Shown piece by piece: positions 1 through 9,614 of a DNA stretch of 64,000 nucleotides. Position numbers and translations under genes: made by a program. A model generated the notes under the pieces. It made no database searches, had not been told where the DNA came from, and saw only the letters and a program-made list of their open reading frames with translations. The stretch spans positions 2,046,001 through 2,110,000 of the forward strand of contig NC_015321.1 in NCBI RefSeq assembly GCF_000194605.1. Reading direction: 5' to 3'. The DNA is from Fluviicola taffensis DSM 16823. Lineage in GTDB: Bacteria; Bacteroidota; Bacteroidia; Flavobacteriales_D; Crocinitomicaceae. The first letter of the stretch is position 1. Each line of letters opens with the position of its first letter.

Positions 1-1623
1 GGGAAGGCTTTTCTGAATCTGGGAAATTTGGACTCTGCAGATGCTGTTGCAAATAAAGGATTGAGCTTATCCTATCAACCAAATGAGGCAGGATTTCGTG
101 GCAAATTTTACAATCTAAAAGGAAATACAAACGGATATAGACGTAATCTCTATTCCTCGTTAGATAACTATGTGAAAGCTGAGAAGATTTTTAGATCGGT
201 GAATGATTTGAATTCGCTCGCTGGGATTTATAGCAACATTGCAAACAATTATTTCAGTCTGAAAGATTATCATACGGCATTGGAATATGCTTCTAAAGGG
301 TATCAATTACTCAAAAACGTTCAGGAAGATCGCATAAAAGCCAATATCTTGACCACTTATGCAATTGCACTCAATAAAACCAAACAGCCAAATAAGGCGT
401 TATTTATTGAAGCGAAAGCCGATAGCATTGCCAATTTGAACGGTGATCCGATGGCTAAATTGGCAGTAACAATCGGTTATGCAGAAATTTACAAAGCAGA
501 CAATCGATTTGACAGCGCGCAGTTGTATTACAATCAATGTATTCAACTAAGTAAAAAGCTTGGAGTTAAGCATTTTGAACTGATGAGTCAAATTGGTTTA
601 ATGGGCATTTATGATGAGCAAAATGCTTTTCAGAAAGTGATTGATAAGGGTGATTCCGTTTTAACACTCGCTCAGGAATTAAATAACCGGGATGTCATTC
701 ATACTTCAAAACGAATTATTGGAAAAGCCTATGCAGCGAAAGGGGAATATAAAAAAGCATTTATTTTTTTTAATGAATCCTACGAGTTGTACAGTGAAAC
801 TGCCGGAGTCGAAAACCAAAGAAACATCAATGAATTGCGTTTAAAATATGAGTCAGAAAAAAAGGCGAAAAAGATTCTAAAGCAACGTTACCAATTGGCC
901 AAGCAGCAAAAGGAAATAGGTGAAAAACAAACATTCATAGCAATGTTACTTCTGCTCTTGCTAATTACAGTTCTAGTACTATTTTTTGTGCGTAGACTAG
1001 CACGAAATAAGCAAGCTATTTTAGGGTTACAAGCGAACCAAAAAATAGCAGAATCCATGATTCAAGGCGAAGAGAAGGAACGTGCCCGAATTGCTTTTGA
1101 AATTCACGATGGAATTGCGGCAACGGTGGCTGGAATCAGTTATAAATTAGGCGCTGACACCAATAAACAGGAGGTTGTTGAATTATTGAAAGGATTGCAG
1201 GAAGATAGCCGGAAAATTGCCCATAATTTGATGCCTGTCGATTTCGATAAGATTGATTTAATAGAGGCAATTGAGCTTTTTTCTCAAAGAATTTCTACCT
1301 CGATTACTGAAATTATCGTTCTAAGTCACCCCATGAATTTACAATTTAGCACTGCTAAAAGTCATTTGATTTATAGAGTATTGCAAGAGTTAATAGGAAA
1401 TGCACTCAAGCATGCTCAGTGTCATTCCATTTTTGTCAAATTTGAATTGATAAACAACGAATTGACTATTCAAGTAGAAGACGACGGTTTAGGAATAACT
1501 CCGTCTCAAATTGAATCAGGATTGAAGAGTGTAAAGGAACGAATCTCAGCATTAGAGGGTAGAATCACCATTCAATCTATAGAAAATAGGGGTACAACGG
1601 TTAAAATTCAATTAGAAGCATGA
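1..1623 (+). CDS. TPR-containing sensor histidine kinase (5' end cut by window edge)
   Basis: The reading frame is open from base 1, so the N-terminus lies outside the window. A TTG at 28 could start translation, but the TPR-like residues before it argue for a longer gene. The visible part has tetratricopeptide-like repeats, a coiled stretch, one membrane helix (AMLLLLLLITVLVLFF) near codon 325, then a HisKA_3 dimerisation helix ERARIAFEIHDG whose phospho-acceptor His codon is 1105-1107, and a HATPase domain with N-box ELIGNALKHA and a DDGLGI G-box. This is the NarX/LuxR-paired kinase class common in Bacteroidota, with the TPRs expected in the periplasm. It overlaps the downstream response regulator by 4 bp (ATGA), so the two are co-translated. 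The signal sensed is unknown. Confidence 0.92.
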   Translation, partial: GKAFLNLGNLDSADAVANKGLSLSYQPNEAGFRGKFYNLKGNTNGYRRNLYSSLDNYVKAEKIFRSVNDLNSLAGIYSNIANNYFSLKDYHTALEYASKGYQLLKNVQEDRIKANILTTYAIALNKTKQPNKALFIEAKADSIANLNGDPMAKLAVTIGYAEIYKADNRFDSAQLYYNQCIQLSKKLGVKHFELMSQIGLMGIYDEQNAFQKVIDKGDSVLTLAQELNNRDVIHTSKRIIGKAYAAKGEYKKAFIFFNESYELYSETAGVENQRNINELRLKYESEKKAKKILKQRYQLAKQQKEIGEKQTFIAMLLLLLLITVLVLFFVRRLARNKQAILGLQANQKIAESMIQGEEKERARIAFEIHDGIAATVAGISYKLGADTNKQEVVELLKGLQEDSRKIAHNLMPVDFDKIDLIEAIELFSQRISTSITEIIVLSHPMNLQFSTAKSHLIYRVLQELIGNALKHAQCHSIFVKFELINNELTIQVEDDGLGITPSQIESGLKSVKERISALEGRITIQSIENRGTTVKIQLEA

Positions 1624-2264
1624 AGCAATTGACAATTTTATTGGGAGATGATCATCAGCTCATTACCACTGGTTTGAGAGATGTATTGCTTAAGGAACCA
1701 ATTGTTTCAAGGGTAGATTGTGCCAATAATAGTACGGATTTGTTGCAAGCTGTAGACAAGTACACTTATGACATCGTTTTTTTAGACATCCATTTTGGTA
1801 AGGCTGACGGAAGAGAAATTGCGACACAATTGTTGCAAAAACAGCCGTACCTTATACTTGCGGCATTGACGAGTTTTGATGATTCAGAAACAATTCAAAC
1901 GACCGTTAATGCAGGATTTAAGGCGTTTTTTTTAAAATCAGATGACATCATAGAATTGGTGGAATGGATCGGAAACAGGTCGTTTGACACCTTTTATCTT
2001 AGCAGACAAACAAAAGAATCGTACACGAGCCAGGCTCTTTTTAATGATGCAAAGAAGAAGACCCATATCCAACTCACTACGCGTGAGAAACAGGTGTTGA
2101 AGCTTATCATGGATGAATACACTACTAAGAGAATCGCCGAAGAGTTATTCCTGTCAGAGAAAACCATCGAAAATTATCGCTCAAGTTTGATGTTAAAACT
2201 AGATGTAACCAATTTAACCGGACTTGTAAAAAAGACCCTTTTACTGGGCTTGTTAAACGAGTAA
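1620..2264 (+). CDS. LuxR/NarL-type response regulator
   Basis: The 214-residue protein has an N-terminal receiver domain (acidic pair D10/D11, phospho-acceptor D56 in VFLDIHF, conserved K in FFLKSDD) and a C-terminal LuxR-type helix-turn-helix around residues 150-205 (LTTREKQVLKLI, then IAEELFLSEKTIENYRSSL). It should be phosphorylated by the upstream kinase and bind DNA. The start codon overlaps the kinase stop codon, which fixes the start. No terminator hairpin is obvious just after it, and the next gene begins 172 bp downstream. Regulated genes cannot be inferred from this window. Confidence 0.95.
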   Translation: MKQLTILLGDDHQLITTGLRDVLLKEPIVSRVDCANNSTDLLQAVDKYTYDIVFLDIHFGKADGREIATQLLQKQPYLILAALTSFDDSETIQTTVNAGFKAFFLKSDDIIELVEWIGNRSFDTFYLSRQTKESYTSQALFNDAKKKTHIQLTTREKQVLKLIMDEYTTKRIAEELFLSEKTIENYRSSLMLKLDVTNLTGLVKKTLLLGLLNE

Positions 2265-2436
2265 ACAAGGGTATTCCCTAGTTTGAAAAAGGAGGATTCC
2301 CCATGTAATCATGTACTTCAATACCCGTAATTTTATTCTATAATTTCAATCTTCAGAATCAGAGCAGATTCTGTGCTTTCTTGTTATAAAAAACAAGTGA
2401 GTTGTTGGAGTTTTACAACGAATAAAATTTGAAAAA

Positions 2437-4143
2437 ATGAAGAAAATAATCTTATCACTAACGCTGATTGGTGCATCACAGTCACTTATCGCGCAAATGC
2501 CAAACCATCATTGGACCAGAAATGCAGACGGGGGAGCCTCGGCAATTGGAAAATGCATGGCAGTTGATGCCGCAGGAAATGTTTACACTGCTGGAGTATT
2601 CGGGTCTACGTCAGACTTTGACAATTCTCCAGCAGTTGGCAACCTCACATCGAATGGCGGAAACGACATTTTTTTGGTAAAAACGAGTCCCCAGGGAAAT
2701 TTTTTATGGGCGAAAAACTTTGGTGGTTCTGCAGAAGATATTCCATCTGAAATCGTGTTAGACCAAGCAGGAAATATCTATATCACCGGAACTTTTAACG
2801 GAACCGCCGATTTCAATCCGGATGGAGGTGTTACTAACTTGACATCGGCAGGAATGGAGGATGTTTTTGTAGTGAAAGTAAATCCAAGCGGTCAGTTGGA
2901 TTGGGCCAAAAGTATCGGAGGAACAGATATCGATGAAGGAAATGGGATTGATATCGATGATTTTGACGGAGCTGTTTTTGTTTTCGGGTCTTTCAGAACA
3001 ACCGTGGATTTTGATCCGGGAGCCGGCATTCAAAACGCAACAAGCAATGGAAGTTCCGATATTTTCATGTTAAAATTATCTGCTACGGGTAATTATGTGA
3101 CGTCAAAAACGATAGGAAGCATTAGCTCGGATCGCGGCAGAGATATTGTCGTTGATGCTTCATCCGGAGATCAATTTATGACAGGAATGTTTGGTGGAAA
3201 CACTGATTTTAATCCAGGGGTACCTGTCGTAGAGTTAACAGGTACCAATGACATTTTTGTCTTAAAATTGGATTCGTCTAATGACTTTGTATTTGCCAAA
3301 AAGATGGGTGGAATTGCTGTGGATGAAGGTAGAAGTATTGATATTGATGACAATGGATTTATTTATGTCCATGGCTCATTTATTTCGACTTGTAATTTTG
3401 ACACGAATGGCGGAACCACTAATGTGACATCCAACGGAAGTGATGATGTTTTTGTGGTACAATTATCACCAAGTGGATCCCTGAATTGGGTAAGTACGTT
3501 TGGTAGTGTGGGAACAGAAGATTTCATGGATATGGACGTGACTAATTCGGGTGCTGTTTATATTACGGGAGAAATGGCCAATAATATGGATGCAAATCCA
3601 GATGTTGTGTTGAGCAATACCTTAACAAAGCTTGGAGCGGAAGATGCTTACATCATTGCGTTAAATTCAAATGGAACGTTTAATTGGGCAACAAATTATG
3701 GCACTGCTGATGTTGGTGCATATACCAGAGGATATGGAATTTATGCAGACGAGTCAAGCAATGTGTATATCACAGGATCCTTTACAGGTACAGTTGATTT
3801 TAACGCTTCAGCAAGCATAAACAATATTATAGCCATTGCGGGTTCAGATAGTTGGTATCAAAAACTTGGAACTGGTACAAATAGTTTGAATGATCATCAA
3901 TCGCTTTCTCATTTATCTGTAAGTCCAAATCCAAGCACAGGTCTTTTTAGTCTAAACTCAGATATTCAACTAAAAAATGCTCAAATAATCATTACAAATT
4001 TGAGAGGTGAAATTATTCAAGAAGTAACCAAAATTGATGGTCTAGGTTTTAATGTCGATTTGGAAAACACAGCAAGTGGAGTTTATTTGATAACGATTGT
4101 TTCGAACACATTCCAGGAAGTAATCAAGATTGTGAAAGAATAA
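2437..4143 (+). CDS. SBBP-repeat protein with T9SS type A sorting domain
   Basis: The product is 568 residues with a signal peptide MKKIILSLTLIGASQSLIAQ. The body is a series of roughly 45-residue repeats of the type VDAAGNVYTAG..G..DF / DIFLVK.s..G...WAK, which matches SBBP (seven-bladed beta-propeller) repeats of secreted proteins. The last ~75 residues form a T9SS type A sorting domain (LSVSPNPSTGLFSLNS ... ASGVYLITIVS ... IVKE), so the protein is expected to be exported by the type IX system and attached to the surface or released. The ATG at 2437 is chosen because it directly precedes the signal peptide. The precise role is unknown. The next gene starts 34 bp downstream and is also a T9SS cargo, so the two may be co-transcribed. 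Confidence 0.9.
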   Translation: MKKIILSLTLIGASQSLIAQMPNHHWTRNADGGASAIGKCMAVDAAGNVYTAGVFGSTSDFDNSPAVGNLTSNGGNDIFLVKTSPQGNFLWAKNFGGSAEDIPSEIVLDQAGNIYITGTFNGTADFNPDGGVTNLTSAGMEDVFVVKVNPSGQLDWAKSIGGTDIDEGNGIDIDDFDGAVFVFGSFRTTVDFDPGAGIQNATSNGSSDIFMLKLSATGNYVTSKTIGSISSDRGRDIVVDASSGDQFMTGMFGGNTDFNPGVPVVELTGTNDIFVLKLDSSNDFVFAKKMGGIAVDEGRSIDIDDNGFIYVHGSFISTCNFDTNGGTTNVTSNGSDDVFVVQLSPSGSLNWVSTFGSVGTEDFMDMDVTNSGAVYITGEMANNMDANPDVVLSNTLTKLGAEDAYIIALNSNGTFNWATNYGTADVGAYTRGYGIYADESSNVYITGSFTGTVDFNASASINNIIAIAGSDSWYQKLGTGTNSLNDHQSLSHLSVSPNPSTGLFSLNSDIQLKNAQIIITNLRGEIIQEVTKIDGLGFNVDLENTASGVYLITIVSNTFQEVIKIVKE

Positions 4144-4177
4144 GCGAGTCTTTTTGAATTTATTAAATGAACCGATT

Positions 4178-5380
4178 ATGAAAGTTATGGTAAAAAAAAT
4201 ACTTACGCTCACTTGTTTTTTAGCAACAAGTGTTCTTGTCGGAGCGCAAAATCTTCCCCCTAGAACACCAAGCGCCTTTAATGTAAAGCAGCTGCATTGT
4301 GGCCATAGTTTAACTTCTCCATTGTTTGGTCCTTGGCCAGGTCAATATACGGAGTTGGTTGCTGATGAAAACGGATTAGCAGGATGGCAAATTTTAGGTT
4401 CGATGGTTGGAAAAGCAGATTTGCCAGGAGCTTGGTTAACGATGCACTGGAACTACACCACTTCCCCCTGCTGGCCAAATTGTTACGAACCGAATAGTAA
4501 TCCAGCATTGGAAATCTCGAATTGGGAGTTATTGGTGGTCACAGAGAATTTTGAAGGTCCTGCAAACAACAGTTTGAACCTTTCAAGAGAGAATTTGCTG
4601 AATTTCGTCAATAATTCGTGGCAAAATGGAAATAGCGGAGCAGGTACGCCAACTATGCTTTGGACCAATTGGCCAGGAATAGACGGGTCGGCTTACTTTT
4701 TTGATGGATACGGCATTCCTGAATCTACAGATGGAAGTGCTGCTGGATGGAGGCAAATGCTCGATTTTCTAGAAGATGGTGGTATGGGCGGAACAAATGG
4801 TTGGCAGGCAATGCAGGACTATGCGAATGACAATAGAACGAGTGGCTGTCCACCTGTTTACATTATTCCAGGGAATCGAATGATGGCGCGTTTTTATGAC
4901 GATGTACAGGCAAGTTTGGTCCCTACGATTACGCATGTGAACCAAATTTTTACGGATGGTGTTCACACAAATGATATTGGAGCTTACATGATTTCAATGA
5001 TTCATTATGCGTGTATTTTTGGACAATCACCTGTTGGGCTTTCAAATAATCCGCATGCAAGTGTAACGATTGATACCAATTTGGCGGCTTACATTCAAAA
5101 TATGGTTTGGGATGTTGTAACCAATTATCCGAGAAGTGGAATTGTTGGAACAGCAAACGTACAAGAAGTTGCTCAATCGCGAATCAAGGTGTTTCCAAAT
5201 CCGGTTTCAGACATTCTAAATGTGGAGGTAGAAGGTGTTACAGAGAGTAAAGAAATTTTTGATCTATTGGGAAATAAGCTAATGACAACAGACGCAAACA
5301 CGATTGATTTGACCAATTTGGCGAAAGGGTCTTATCTGTTAGTTATTGGTGATGAGCAGCAGATAATTGCGAAACAGTGA
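4178..5380 (+). CDS. SGNH-hydrolase-like secreted protein with T9SS sorting domain
   Basis: The frame opens at a TTG at 4154, but the ATG at 4178 (or the one at 4187) sits right before the signal peptide VKKILTLTCFLATSVLVGAQ, so 4178 is used. Residues CGHSL (Ser44) resemble the block I nucleophile of GDSL/SGNH hydrolases, and D260-G-V-H263 in TDGVHTNDIGAY resembles the block V catalytic Asp/His. About 400 residues, ending in a T9SS type A domain (IKVFPNPVSDILNVEVEG ... LAKGSYLLVIG). A secreted or surface esterase-like enzyme is inferred; the substrate is unknown, and GHSL instead of GDSL is a departure from the consensus. A strong terminator palindrome follows 20 bp after the stop. Confidence 0.8.
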   Translation: MKVMVKKILTLTCFLATSVLVGAQNLPPRTPSAFNVKQLHCGHSLTSPLFGPWPGQYTELVADENGLAGWQILGSMVGKADLPGAWLTMHWNYTTSPCWPNCYEPNSNPALEISNWELLVVTENFEGPANNSLNLSRENLLNFVNNSWQNGNSGAGTPTMLWTNWPGIDGSAYFFDGYGIPESTDGSAAGWRQMLDFLEDGGMGGTNGWQAMQDYANDNRTSGCPPVYIIPGNRMMARFYDDVQASLVPTITHVNQIFTDGVHTNDIGAYMISMIHYACIFGQSPVGLSNNPHASVTIDTNLAAYIQNMVWDVVTNYPRSGIVGTANVQEVAQSRIKVFPNPVSDILNVEVEGVTESKEIFDLLGNKLMTTDANTIDLTNLAKGSYLLVIGDEQQIIAKQ

Positions 5381-5400
5381 TTGTAAGTAAATAACACAAA

Positions 5401-5434
5401 AAAGTAGAGGCTGGTCGCGACCAGCCTCTACTTT
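5401..5434. terminator. Perfect 17-bp-arm palindrome, intrinsic terminator
   Basis: The two 17-base arms (AAAGTAGAGGCTGGTCG and its exact complement) meet without a spacer and are followed on the plus strand by a T-run. It lies 20 bp after the SGNH-hydrolase stop codon and can end transcription of that gene; the A-run on the other side lets it work in both directions. Confidence 0.85.
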
Positions 5435-5512
5435 TATAAAAGAATAATTGTTTAAGACTGCACTAATCCCGAAGATTCGGGATCTGTACCGAATCAAAAG
5501 CGGTGTTTTTTC

Positions 5513-5558
5513 TTATTTCTTTCTAAAATAGATTCTCACCGGAACCCCTTCAAATTGT
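5513..5558 (-). repeat. Displaced second copy of the der 3' end
   Basis: On the minus strand this segment reads [13 protein letters not shown] followed by TAA, the same C-terminus as der. Bases 5529-5554 are identical to 6556-6581 inside der (26 bp). Distal to that core the codons for YFRKK differ only by synonymous changes (TAT TTT AGA AAG AAA here; TAC TTC CGT AAG AAG in der), and proximal to it similarity stops at once. This is the arrangement left when an element inserts at the 3' end of a gene and restores its coding end. The NYN gene lies between the two copies. Confidence 0.8.
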
Positions 5559-5580
5559 ACACTTTATCAAGTCTTTACTT

Positions 5581-6210
5581 TTACCAATGTGATGGTTTAG
5601 CAAAATCTCCTAAAGCTGTTTGAACTAATCCTTTAAACTGAGAATTTTGGTATTTCTGCGGTTTAATTGAATAAGTTTGATCGGTATAGATTTTAAGTTC
5701 ATCATTAGTTCTTTTATAAGGGAAAAAAACAATGATTTTGATTTTAGGATTAATTTGTTTTGCCAATTCAATTGCAGGAATTAAATCCGTATCTCCTGAA
5801 ACGATAGCTATCACATCGCACATTGCTTTTGCTGCTAACTCAATAATTTTTGATGCAATCGCAACATCTGTTTTCTTTTCTTCAAAAGTTTCGAATGTTT
5901 CATTACATTTTTTGCAGAACACTTCTTTCGGTTTAAATCCACCATAAATTGCTTCAATTCCTTTTGTCTCTAAAGCAGCAATATACCTCTTATGTCGCTC
6001 AATGCTGTTGGGTTTTTCCTTCTGAACATGAAGTCTTAGTGCAGTGAAATAAAAAATTTTTTCAAACTTTGCAGTTCCTCCAATAGCACCCATATATGAA
6101 TGCAATAAAGTTTTGATATCTAGCCATTTGGCTTTAATACCATTGTTTTTTTCAAGATCCTCTATTGAGTGATAAAGGTTGAAACCATCAATTAGAAATG
6201 AGACTTTCAT
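5581..6210 (-). CDS. NYN (PIN-like) domain protein, LabA/DUF88-type putative nuclease
   Basis: The 209-residue protein starts VSFLIDGFNLYHS and has the acidic residues expected of an NYN/PIN-like RNase active site: D8, D115 (KTDVAIAS) and D140/D142 in SGDTDLIPAIE. A C99-x-x-C102 pair (CKKC) suggests a small metal-binding insertion. Family members bind a metal ion and are thought to cleave RNA or act in defence or RNA turnover; the role here is unknown. Its stop is only 26 bp from the displaced der end, and it is the only gene in the putative insert between the two der 3' ends. A cargo gene of a small integrative unit is therefore a reasonable inference. Confidence 0.85.
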   Translation of the reverse strand: MKVSFLIDGFNLYHSIEDLEKNNGIKAKWLDIKTLLHSYMGAIGGTAKFEKIFYFTALRLHVQKEKPNSIERHKRYIAALETKGIEAIYGGFKPKEVFCKKCNETFETFEEKKTDVAIASKIIELAAKAMCDVIAIVSGDTDLIPAIELAKQINPKIKIIVFFPYKRTNDELKIYTDQTYSIKPQKYQNSQFKGLVQTALGDFAKPSHW

Positions 6211-6539
6211 TCAGTGCATAAAAAACCCCCTAAACCGGAGAATAGAGGGAGCTTATAAATTTCTTTACAAGTGGAGTTGACACAAAGATAGAAAGAAAAT
6301 TGATATCAACACCTGTTTTATGAACAATTTACAGAAGTTATTAACATTTCTTAAACCTCTTTTAAAACTTAAGACTTCTATTTTCTATGTATAAGTTGGA
6401 TTTTCCAGTCAATATTGAGTTGATTTCACATAAATACATAAGTGCATTAAAACGGGATTATTAAAATTAATTCAGATTAAGGACGATCTCTTTTAGAACA
6501 ATAAAGGTTAAAAGATGTCCATCTTTATTGTTTTGAGTA
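6211..6539. other. Gene-free spacer between NYN gene and der
   Basis: This 329-bp stretch holds the NYN gene's upstream region and, at its right end, the der terminator hairpin. No open reading frame with coding character was seen on either strand. It lies inside the segment bounded by the two der 3' ends, so it may contain recombination sites of that insert, but no such site is recognisable apart from the der-end core. Confidence 0.5.
6497..6532 (-). terminator. der terminator hairpin
   Basis: Ten-base perfect arms (AACAATAAAG and CTTTATTGTT) enclose a 16-base loop which itself contains a shorter AAAGATG/CATCTTT stem. It begins 8 bp after the der stop codon on the minus strand and belongs to the der tail that is now attached to the gene. 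Confidence 0.6.
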
Positions 6540-7850
6540 TTACTTCTTACGGAAGTAGATTCTCACCGGAACCCCTTCAAAATTATACATGTCACGTAAT
6601 CTATTTTCCAAGAAACGTTTGTACGAATCTGGAATATATTGTGGCAAATTACAGAAGAATGCAAACGCTGGAGCATGTGTTGGCAACTGTTGCACGTATT
6701 TAATCTTCACGTATTTTCCTTTCAATGATGGCGGTGGATTGCTATCAATAATTGGAAGTAATTTATCATTCAATTCGGATGTAGAGATTTTCCGCGTACG
6801 ATTTTCAAAAACCTCCATTGCTTTTTCCAACGCTTTATGAATGCGTTGTTTTGTCAATGCAGAAGTAAAGATGATTGGAACATCGTTGTAAGGAGCTAAA
6901 TCCTCTCTTAGTTTCTTTTCGTATTCGACAGCAGTCATGGTATCTTTTTCAACCAAGTCCCACTTGTTGACCAAAACAACCACACCTTTGTGATTTTTTT
7001 CAATCATGTAATAGATTGTCAAATCTTGTTTTTGAATTCCCTCAGTAGCATCGATCATAAAAATACAGATGTCTGAATTTTCAATCGTACGAACGGAACG
7101 CAATACCGAATAATACTCAATATCTTCGGTTACTTTTGCTTTTTTTCTAATTCCTGCGGTATCAATTAACATGAAATCGAAACCAAAAGCTTTGTAGCGT
7201 GTATCGATAGAATCTCTTGTTGTTCCAGAGATATCTGTTACAATATTTCGTTCTTCACCAGTGAAAGCATTAATCATAGAAGATTTACCTACGTTTGGTT
7301 TTCCAACTACAGCAATGTGAGGAAGATTTGCTTCTTCTTCGCCACGTGGATCTTCTTTTTCAAAGTATTTCACTACTTCATCCAAGATTTCTCCTGTACC
7401 AGAACCATTTGCTGCGGATAAATCAAAAACTTCTCCAAGTCCAAAGGACCAAAATTCAGCTGACATTCCAACGCGATCATTGTTGTCTACTTTATTTGCG
7501 ATGACCAATACTTTCTTTTTGGATTTTCGCAAAATTTTCGCAACCGTTTCATCCAAATCAACAATTCCAGTTGTAGCATCCACTACAAATAGAATGACAT
7601 TTGCTTCATCAATCGCAATTTCAACTTGCTTGCGGATTTCTCCTTCAAAAATATCTTCTGAACCTCTTACGTAACCCCCAGTATCAATGACTGAAAACGG
7701 AATTCCGTTCCATTCACCACGACCATAAATGCGATCGCGAGTAACACCGCTTATTTCCTTTACAATTGCATGATTGCTTTCTGTTAAGCGATTGAATAGG
7801 GTGGACTTTCCTACATTTGGGCGTCCTACGATGGCAATAATATTTCCCAT
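6540..7850 (-). CDS. der: Ribosome biogenesis GTPase Der (EngA)
   Basis: At 436 residues this has the usual length of Der, with two tandem GTPase domains: GRPNVGKS near residue 8 with DTGG, and GKPNVGKS near residue 183 with DTAGIRKK and NKWD, followed by the KH-like C-terminal domain ending [15 protein letters not shown]. Der is an essential GTPase for 50S subunit maturation in the cytoplasm. It follows era on the same strand after a 52-bp gap, so the two ribosome-assembly GTPases are probably co-transcribed. Its 3' end is unusual because a second copy lies about 1 kb downstream at 5513-5558, which suggests that the last codons were replaced by an inserting element. Confidence 0.97.
6556..6581 (-). 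repeat. 26-bp core shared by der and the displaced der end
   Basis: These bases, inside the last codons of der, are identical to 5529-5554. With the other copy they bracket 1,027 bp containing the NYN gene and look like the two attachment-site copies of an integrated unit. Confidence 0.7.
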
Positions 7851-7902
7851 TTTTTGTTTTTTAGACGTACTTCACAGCACTGCGTTATAGATAATCTCGG
7901 GC

Positions 7903-8778
7903 TTAATACCCGTACTTTTTCAATTTTTGTTCACTGGTTCTCCAGTCTTTGTCCACTTTCACGAAGGTCTCCAAAAATACTTTTTGACCCAAGAAAGCTT
8001 CCATATCTAAGCGTGATTCGCGACCAATGCGTTTCAACATGTCACCTTTTTTACCGATCAAAATTCCCTTTTGAGAATCTCTTTCTACAATAATTAAGGC
8101 GCGAATATGTGTAATGTTTTCTGCTTCCTGATAGGATTCAATTTCTACCTGACAAGCGTAAGGAACCTCTTTGTCACAATGTAAAAAGATCTTTTCACGG
8201 ATCATTTCTGCGACGAAGAAACGCACAGGACGATCCGATAATTCATCTTTATCAAAGTATGCAGGACCTTCAGGAGCCAATTGCAAAATGCGGTCCCAAA
8301 TGACATTGATGTTGAATTTATGCAACGCAGAAGTTGGAATAATTTCCGCATTCGGAACTTTTTCTTTCCAATATTGTACGCGCTCTTCCAATTTTGTTTG
8401 ATCCGCCAAATCAATCTTATTCAAAATCAATAGAACCGGAATTTTCAATTTCACAATGCGTTCAAGCGTTTCCTTGTGATTCATTTCGTTTTCAGACATG
8501 TCTGTGATGAAAAGCAAAATATCGGCATCTTTGAACGAACTTTCCACATAACTCATCATCGCTTCGTGCAACTTATAAGAAGCATTGACTACTCCTGGAG
8601 TATCTGAAAAAACGATTTGATGATCATCACCGTTCACTAAACCATGAATACGGTGACGTGTTGTTTGCGCTTTGGATGTAACGATGGAAAGCTTTTCGCC
8701 CACCAATCCATTCATAAGGGTTGATTTACCAACATTTGGGCTACCAACAATATTTACGAAAGCTGATTTGTGAGACAT
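7903..8778 (-). CDS. era: GTPase Era
   Basis: The 291-residue protein has an N-terminal GTPase domain (GSPNVGKS at about residue 12, switch region QTTRHRIHG, DTPG, NKID) and a C-terminal KH domain containing GILIGKKGDMLKRIG, the standard Era architecture and length. Era binds 16S rRNA near the 3' end and assists 30S maturation. It is the first gene of an era-der pair on the minus strand. The ATG at 8778 lies about 20 bp downstream of a -7-like box at 8796-8803. Confidence 0.97.
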   Translation of the reverse strand: MSHKSAFVNIVGSPNVGKSTLMNGLVGEKLSIVTSKAQTTRHRIHGLVNGDDHQIVFSDTPGVVNASYKLHEAMMSYVESSFKDADILLFITDMSENEMNHKETLERIVKLKIPVLLILNKIDLADQTKLEERVQYWKEKVPNAEIIPTSALHKFNINVIWDRILQLAPEGPAYFDKDELSDRPVRFFVAEMIREKIFLHCDKEVPYACQVEIESYQEAENITHIRALIIVERDSQKGILIGKKGDMLKRIGRESRLDMEAFLGQKVFLETFVKVDKDWRTSEQKLKKYGY

Positions 8779-9344: not shown

Positions 9345-9614
9345 CGTTTTAAGTTTTAAAGTTTAGACAAAGATGCGCCTTACTAACAATTTAGTAAAAC
9401 GGTTTAGTAATACTTCAATAGAGTGAGTTGCGATTTTCCGTACAGGTGATTTTAGAAGGAAAAGTATTGAGCAACCAGAAGATGTGATTCCTGTTTCTAA
9501 TCAAATCAGCGATATAAAATATTTTTTGGTAACTACTTTAGCTTTTTTATATTATTGAAAGTAACTTGGCTATAATCTGTCTTGCAGATTAGTATAACAC
9601 ATAAACGATATACA

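Follow-up and report, generated by a model that had tools for sequence, protein, structure and literature searches.

The window analyzed here is a 64,000-nucleotide stretch of the Fluviicola taffensis DSM 16823 genome (contig NC_015321.1, positions 2,046,001 to 2,110,000; coordinates below are those of the stretch). It carries, on its minus strand, an intact der gene for the GTPase EngA (6540-7850; NCBIfam Der), followed by a segment of roughly 1 kb that ends in a second, displaced der 3' end (5513-5554, minus strand). Between the two der ends lies one convincing protein gene (5581-6210, minus strand), whose 209-residue product is an NYN-domain nuclease of the PADLOC family HEC-09. Just before its start, on the same strand, stands a small structured RNA (6218-6278) made of two hairpins, with a terminator-like T-run after the second. 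A few bases upstream of the RNA, inspection of the sequence revealed TATCTTTG (6283-6290, minus strand), which fits TAnnTTTG, a pattern that we take to be the Bacteroidota -7 promoter motif. An earlier reading of this DNA, made from its letters alone and here called the sequence-only reading, had recognized the two der ends and the nuclease gene and overlooked the RNA.

A one-kilobase insertion at the 3' end of der

The last 42 nt of der (6540-6581) and the displaced copy (5513-5554) form a direct repeat of 88% identity with an exact 26-bp core (5529-5554 = 6556-6581, the latter within der), and the two minus-strand copies encode an identical run of 17 residues with codons that differ near the end. 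A chance origin is ruled out, as first-order shuffling of the 4 kb around it, repeated 200 times, never produced an exact direct repeat longer than 15 bp. The duplication with synonymous codon differences described in the sequence-only reading is thereby borne out, and so, for the most part, is its companion claim that similarity ends abruptly proximal to the core, except that the displaced copy remains der-like for about ten further bases (5555-5564, minus strand, with one gap), as seen in its alignment to the relative G002 (53 columns, 92%).

The closest of the relatives compared, G008, whose Der protein is 98% identical, supplies the empty site. A single contig of this genome aligns to positions 1-5380 and 6539-8277 of the window, with 62 bp between the two blocks against 1158 bp in the window, so that the neighbor gene (4154-5380, plus strand) adjoins der there. 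The NYN gene is absent from all 13 other genomes of the genus, two of which are only 83-84% complete. The protein occurs once in its own genome of 4,633,577 bases, with matches in 4 of 85 further relatives, three of them weak, and the insert DNA has no counterpart in 58 relatives apart from the der tail and short matches elsewhere. The GC fraction is 0.317 for the NYN gene against 0.376 for the window, and that of the insert is lower than in its surroundings. Because G008 has only 62 bp between der and the next gene, and because the NYN gene is missing from the 13 other genomes of the genus, the segment is an insertion, and to this extent the original proposal is supported.

The insert also proved as sparse as the sequence-only reading had held, with no recombinase gene evident in it. 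The integrase profile PF00589 has 11 matches in the genome and none in the window, and neither attC or attI sites nor an array context was seen there by eye. No other gene-like open reading frame (ORF) of at least 50 residues was discerned by eye within 5555-6539, and the stretch from the RNA gene to the stop codon of der (6279-6539, strand not assigned), which belongs to the insert, holds no evident gene. A perfect 18-bp inverted repeat resembling a terminator lies at 5400-5435, between the neighbor gene and the displaced der tail.

The sequence-only reading went further in suggesting that such a unit could use der as an attachment site, and allowed for different cargo between two der ends in other strains. 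The comparison supported neither idea. None of the 31 der neighborhoods fetched from relatives has a second tail; 30 show exactly one by pattern, and the remaining locus, L044, shows none by pattern, its own tail being spelled differently. Two of the 31 are short downstream of der (about 290 bases in L042 and 540 in L045). The exact 26-mer of the core has no match in the viral contigs. With one tail per relative, and HEC-09 homologs found at other gene ends, der was rejected as a recurrent insertion site. A limited search with 8 of the 11 integrases of the genome as queries gave a match in one of the 31 loci (L049, from G014), where a tyrosine recombinase gene (3621-4388) lies about 1.9 kb downstream of der, beyond an mnmE-like gene identified by eye.

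The evidence on which of the two tails is native is divided. By geometry the displaced tail would be native, and insert-free relatives were expected to carry it joined to der. G008 does provide the empty site, but its tail is nearest to the attached copy: the attached tail CTTCCGTAAGAAGTAA is one base off the tail of G008 (and of G007), and the displaced tail TTTTAGAAAGAAATAA is one base off that of G002. These resemblances touch on a possibility that the sequence-only reading had itself named as counting against it, namely that the attached tail is the native one. The flanks downstream of the two tails do not separate native from incoming.

The HEC-09 nuclease and the RNA before its gene

The insert-encoded protein matches the HEC-09 profile (PDLC04163) over its full length, with residues 2-209 aligned to positions 3-202 of 203 (E=1.2e-44), and also matches Pfam NYN above the gathering score (E=1.5e-9) and phrog_7929 (E=8.8e-20). 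HEC-09 was likewise assigned to all nine other homologs tested. Pfam and the fold comparison point to NYN, and no other toxin family was reported. Its AlphaFold2 model (predicted local distance difference test score 95.9) has as first Foldseek match 2qip, of unknown function, followed at ranks 2 and 3 by the MARF1 NYN domains 5yaa and 6fdl. Four acidic residues (D8, D115, D140, and D142) show no variation across 41 sequences and are the presumed catalytic residues of an NYN/PIN-like active site. Fold and conserved acidic residues are thus shared with the MARF1-like NYN ribonucleases, whereas HEC-09 homologs differ from these in having a CxxC pair, P and W residues conserved in the C-terminal part, and the linked RNA gene.

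Homologs were recovered from 30 of 395 genomes sampled from the phylum (E<=1e-10, own genome counted), from 246 of 72,556 plasmid records and 1 of 50,697 phage records, and at 56 viral loci; the named-genome set used below comprises the best 80 of 513 found. The nearest, L134, comes from a Cryomorphaceae metagenome-assembled genome and shares 76% protein identity. Its surroundings include a DNA cytosine methyltransferase gene (NCBIfam) together with MazG-like and helicase-like genes recognized by eye without an NCBIfam match, and the repeat scan found no flanking repeats around its NYN gene. The family name stands for Hma-embedded candidate, a class described as putative single-gene defense (PMC12988326).

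Directly before the nuclease gene of most homologs stands an RNA of about 60 nt with two hairpins and a terminator end. A perfect hairpin with a T-run occurs within 130 nt in 123 of 165 loci. No consensus structure came out of the first alignment (A2, 46 sequences), and R1, the model built on it, had no pairs and was left unused. We attribute this failure to subgroups aligned out of register; aligned by subgroup (A3 and A4), the sequences did yield structures. In each of the two separately aligned subgroups, RNAalifold recovered two hairpins, with two-sided changes in 14 of 17 pairs for the first (18 sequences) and 12 of 19 for the second (13 sequences). Across the 18 training sequences, 96.1% of cells are paired, compared with 80.8% after shuffling and at most 59.5% when slid. 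When 70 matches were aligned to the model, an alignment that is fitted to the model itself, 16 of 17 pairs covaried, with 291 two-sided cells against 82 in shuffled sequences.

In 69 of the 80 named-genome loci, the covariance models R2 (E<=1) or R3 (E<=0.1) match on the strand of the NYN gene, 2-72 nt (median 23) ahead of its matched start. As 28 of these loci were training sequences, the count outside training is 41 of 52; the 11 missed loci are L173, L181, L186, L193, L197, L202, L207, L208, L209, L212, and L213. In viral contigs, R2 matches before the NYN gene in 22 of 56 loci (two of them in training), with one further match elsewhere. Of 63 loci, 47 have a TTGAC box in the 55 nt that precede the RNA, compared with only 1 of 63 control windows, and because of this difference the RNA is, on sequence grounds, very probably transcribed. 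A known RNA family was rejected, as Rfam has no match at the RNA, either in window positions 5300-6700 (E up to 1) or in six HEC-09 loci (E up to 0.5).

The R2 match of the copy in the window (6218-6275, minus strand) reaches 19.8 bits (E=0.03 in 0.70 Mb), which is weak alone and would not have sufficed; we accepted it because of its position before the NYN start, its fold, and the point at which similarity to L134 begins. Its computed fold has the same two hairpins (-16.8 kcal/mol, z=-2.6, with 3 of 200 shuffles as good), and DNA similarity to L134 runs from 6278, the 5' end of the RNA, to the stop codon of the NYN gene (704 columns, 73%). Stem 1 is kept in L134, where by eye it shows one two-sided change, one one-sided change, and one mismatch. 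RNA and nuclease gene are hence a co-inherited block.

The median distance of 23 nt between terminator and matched NYN start is also the usual attenuator layout, and the conserved RNA could accordingly be a cis-acting leader of the NYN mRNA and nothing more, with no partner role. We regard this as unlikely, in view of a clade whose like RNA points away from the nuclease gene. There, 15 of 16 loci examined by eye (eight of them from one genus, the set drawn from 28 phylum loci) have a two-hairpin RNA with a T-run and an ACATC-like 5' start on the strand opposite NYN; its fold was computed for L100 and L110. Motif and fold suggest that this RNA is kin to that captured by R2 and R3, and, if so, its outward orientation makes a mere leader less likely and speaks for a separate RNA gene.

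Several further observations concern this RNA. Its 5' UCAUC/ACAUC, which the model leaves unpaired and without a partner, ranks with its best-conserved parts; contact with a protein or within a pseudoknot is possible. L149 has an RNA match at 9374-9431 (minus strand, E=1.1e-5) with no evident intact NYN gene behind it. L155 has a second RNA copy (2362-2419) some 500 bp ahead of the first. Behind this second copy come a few bases like those of an NYN start and then a small HicB-like ORF, so called by eye without a Pfam match, which may be a remnant or alternative cargo. In L151, the HEC-09 RNA is immediately preceded by an Rfam int-alpA RNA (RF02996, E=7e-6; 4646-4714), and tRNA genes follow downstream. 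On the 4.3-kb E. coli plasmid pKFu019_3 (L323, 1600-2040), the HEC-09 gene follows different hairpins, seen by eye, which close with a strong terminator roughly 25 nt ahead of it; since these differ and are matched by neither R2 nor R3, the RNA sequence may vary with the host group.

Repeat-bounded units at other genes

A scan for repeats spanning the NYN gene, run over one set of 136 loci and one of 28 and followed by inspection (genes named by NCBIfam, tRNAs by ARAGORN), returned further cases in which a HEC-09 gene lies between duplicated gene ends. At the menH 3' end (L096), a 17-bp repeat recurs at a spacing of 877. At the mqnE 5' end (L116), the copies share 53 bp exactly and 89 nt at 90%, with a spacing of 866 and the two starts spelled differently. 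At the valS 5' end (L113), three 163-nt copies bound two tandem units, one of 1386 bp and a second of 800 bp that lacks an NYN gene. The repeat of L146 (spacing 1328) covers the last 46 bp of tRNA-Glu, its 3' end included. Probable gene-end cases, at ORF ends of uncertain genes, are L152 and L170, and L135, L159, L187, and L201 are repeat-bounded without a clear gene end. Three candidates were dropped from the gene-end list: L107 and L163 for 15-bp repeats that may be due to chance, and L136 for lying in a dispersed-repeat region where its own control ORF scored too. Within L113 (7900-10900), one unit holds HEC-09 and an ORF resembling a CopG antitoxin (Pfam below cut-off), and the other a 109-residue ORF without a Pfam match. 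L117 (5000-15000) has its HEC-09 gene in what resembles an integron array, where small ORFs, most of them on one strand, occur with repeated motifs of about 36 nt.

Integration at a gene 3' end with both boundaries retained recalls the cis-mobilizable elements (CIMEs), defined as elements that have lost their integration and transfer genes and keep attL and attR (PMC5704250). The insert shares with them its position between two gene-end copies and the lack of an evident integrase or transfer gene, and the tandem units at valS extend the likeness. It departs from them in its size of about 1 kb, its single module, and cargo of the same kind in distant phyla, and no parent element was found. A larger element could nevertheless have entered der by its own integrase and shrunk to one cargo module with attL and attR kept, an origin which the der geometry fits, as does L146, whose tRNA 3' end is a classic target. 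We consider such decay improbable: small repeat-bounded HEC-09 units recur at different genes in distant phyla, and the existence of a standing minimal unit is more likely than several independent decays that each left the same content. Moreover, a limited tblastn search with 8 of the 11 integrases of the genome found hits in only 3 of 108 HEC-09 loci, over the whole sequence available for each, and none inside a repeat-bounded unit.

The mqnE cases bear on how such units might enter. In G493, a relative of G351, an NYN gene (78% amino acid identity) again lies at mqnE, and the displaced copy of 136 codons is near-identical to mqnE only toward its inner end. The identical core covers codons ~12-29 in G351 and ~107-136 in G493 (one mismatch), and because the crossover points differ at the same gene end, homology rather than one fixed att site is indicated. 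In L298 (2383-3817, in mqnE orientation), NYN and mqnE are preceded by two displaced mqnE 5' ends, 136 and 51 codons long, which suggests repeated insertion. Spread of this kind would require only small circles or transforming DNA in which part of a conserved gene is joined to the module, integrated by host recombination without recombinase specificity. The shifting mqnE core agrees with it, as do the use of both 3' and 5' gene ends and the three valS copies bounding two tandem units, and we hold it to be a possibility worth keeping, if a doubtful one. At 26 bp, the der core offers little length for homologous recombination, though it may have eroded, a source of circles would be needed, and L146 is equally compatible with a site-specific target.

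As the NYN gene is usually the sole evident protein gene in a repeat-bounded unit (by eye), the protein and its RNA could also be the unit's own mobilizing machine. This was rejected, since in all eight units tested the resemblance between the RNA and the repeat core stays at the level of shuffled sequence (18-195 of 200 shuffles as good). In addition, no exact repeat of at least 17 bp flanks 134 of the 145 HEC-09 genes within 700 bp, other HEC-09 genes sit on plasmids and viral contigs, and the fold resembles NYN RNases; we think a mobilizing role very improbable.

A candidate RNA-regulated nuclease module

The arrangement invites comparison with type III toxin-antitoxin systems (ToxIN, CptIN, and TenpIN), whose layout comprises a promoter-proximal small RNA, a Rho-independent terminator, and a nuclease gene (PMC5086642). 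The same order of RNA, terminator, and nuclease recurs in 69 of 80 HEC-09 loci, with a promoter box before the RNA in most of those examined for it, and the window fold conforms to it. Several features set HEC-09 apart. Its toxin family is NYN and not ToxN, CptN, or TenpN; second RNA copies occur only far off, in L149 and L155; and one clade has the RNA divergent from the gene. A pseudoknot is absent from the HEC-09 RNA model, yet the models allow none and none was searched for. By analogy, the HEC-09 module may work like a type III system without belonging to one, as toxin family and RNA repeats differ.

Our reading, held with moderate confidence, is that the inserted DNA represents a minimal integrated unit whose cargo is an RNA-regulated NYN ribonuclease module, similar to type III toxin-antitoxin systems and probably anti-phage. 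The RNA would be made in excess and would bind and hold, or otherwise regulate, the nuclease, of which read-through of the terminator would yield little. Infection or another stress would then unbalance the pair. The NYN protein presumably cuts RNA and is restrained by its partner, and the module may serve defense or addiction. Entry could have been by a single crossover between a circle carrying a der end and the chromosomal der end, leaving der intact, through either a recombinase acting in trans or host homologous recombination.

A number of results weigh against this interpretation. The window RNA is only the third R2 match genome-wide (E=0.195), and a match downstream of der in L047, from a relative without the NYN gene, scores higher than the window copy (21.3 bits > 19.8). 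R2 and R3 find nothing in L116, L298, or the E. coli, Streptomyces, and phage records; R2 also matches apart from an intact NYN gene, in L149 and L155. Among the opposite-strand loci, R2 matches L110 alone (E=0.19), and R3 none of the six searched. Tandem repeats, which type III RNAs have, were not seen, the HEC-09 RNA being one unit of about 60 nt. Spanning repeats of at least 17 bp occur at 11 of 145 NYN genes (window counted) compared with 14 of 425 control ORFs (150-300 residues, same loci, flanking distance within 700 bp, gene-end sorting unblinded; p=0.036). The enrichment is only modest, and several repeats in both sets are dispersed or array repeats. Finally, one survey lists HEC-09 among systems correlated in Pseudomonas with phage susceptibility and not resistance (PMC12447246), which disfavors a defense role.

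The window protein covers the whole PADLOC profile, but the Hma-embedded candidates are described as single-gene ones (PMC12988326), and no RNA partner belongs to the HEC-09 protein model. Neither a HEC-09 RNA partner nor a der element family is described in the titles and abstract openings of the open-licence PMC papers among the matches listed. A broader proposition, which we advance tentatively and with clearly less assurance than the interpretation above, is that HEC-09 constitutes a new type of RNA-controlled defense or toxin-antitoxin system in which a dedicated two-hairpin RNA holds an NYN ribonuclease, present in many bacterial phyla and in viruses and carried in recombinase-less units of about 1 kb that enter conserved gene ends by supplying a replacement end.

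A conserved RNA partner, if true, would turn HEC-09 from a single-gene candidate into a two-component RNA-protein system and would explain how the nuclease gene is carried safely; given the plasmid homolog in E. coli, this two-component reading can be tested directly in that host. Units bounded by gene ends, if real, would be very small integrative elements and would bear on how single defense genes spread without a recombinase of their own. The pairing of RNA and nuclease across many bacterial phyla suggests a compact, traveling toxin-antitoxin-like module.

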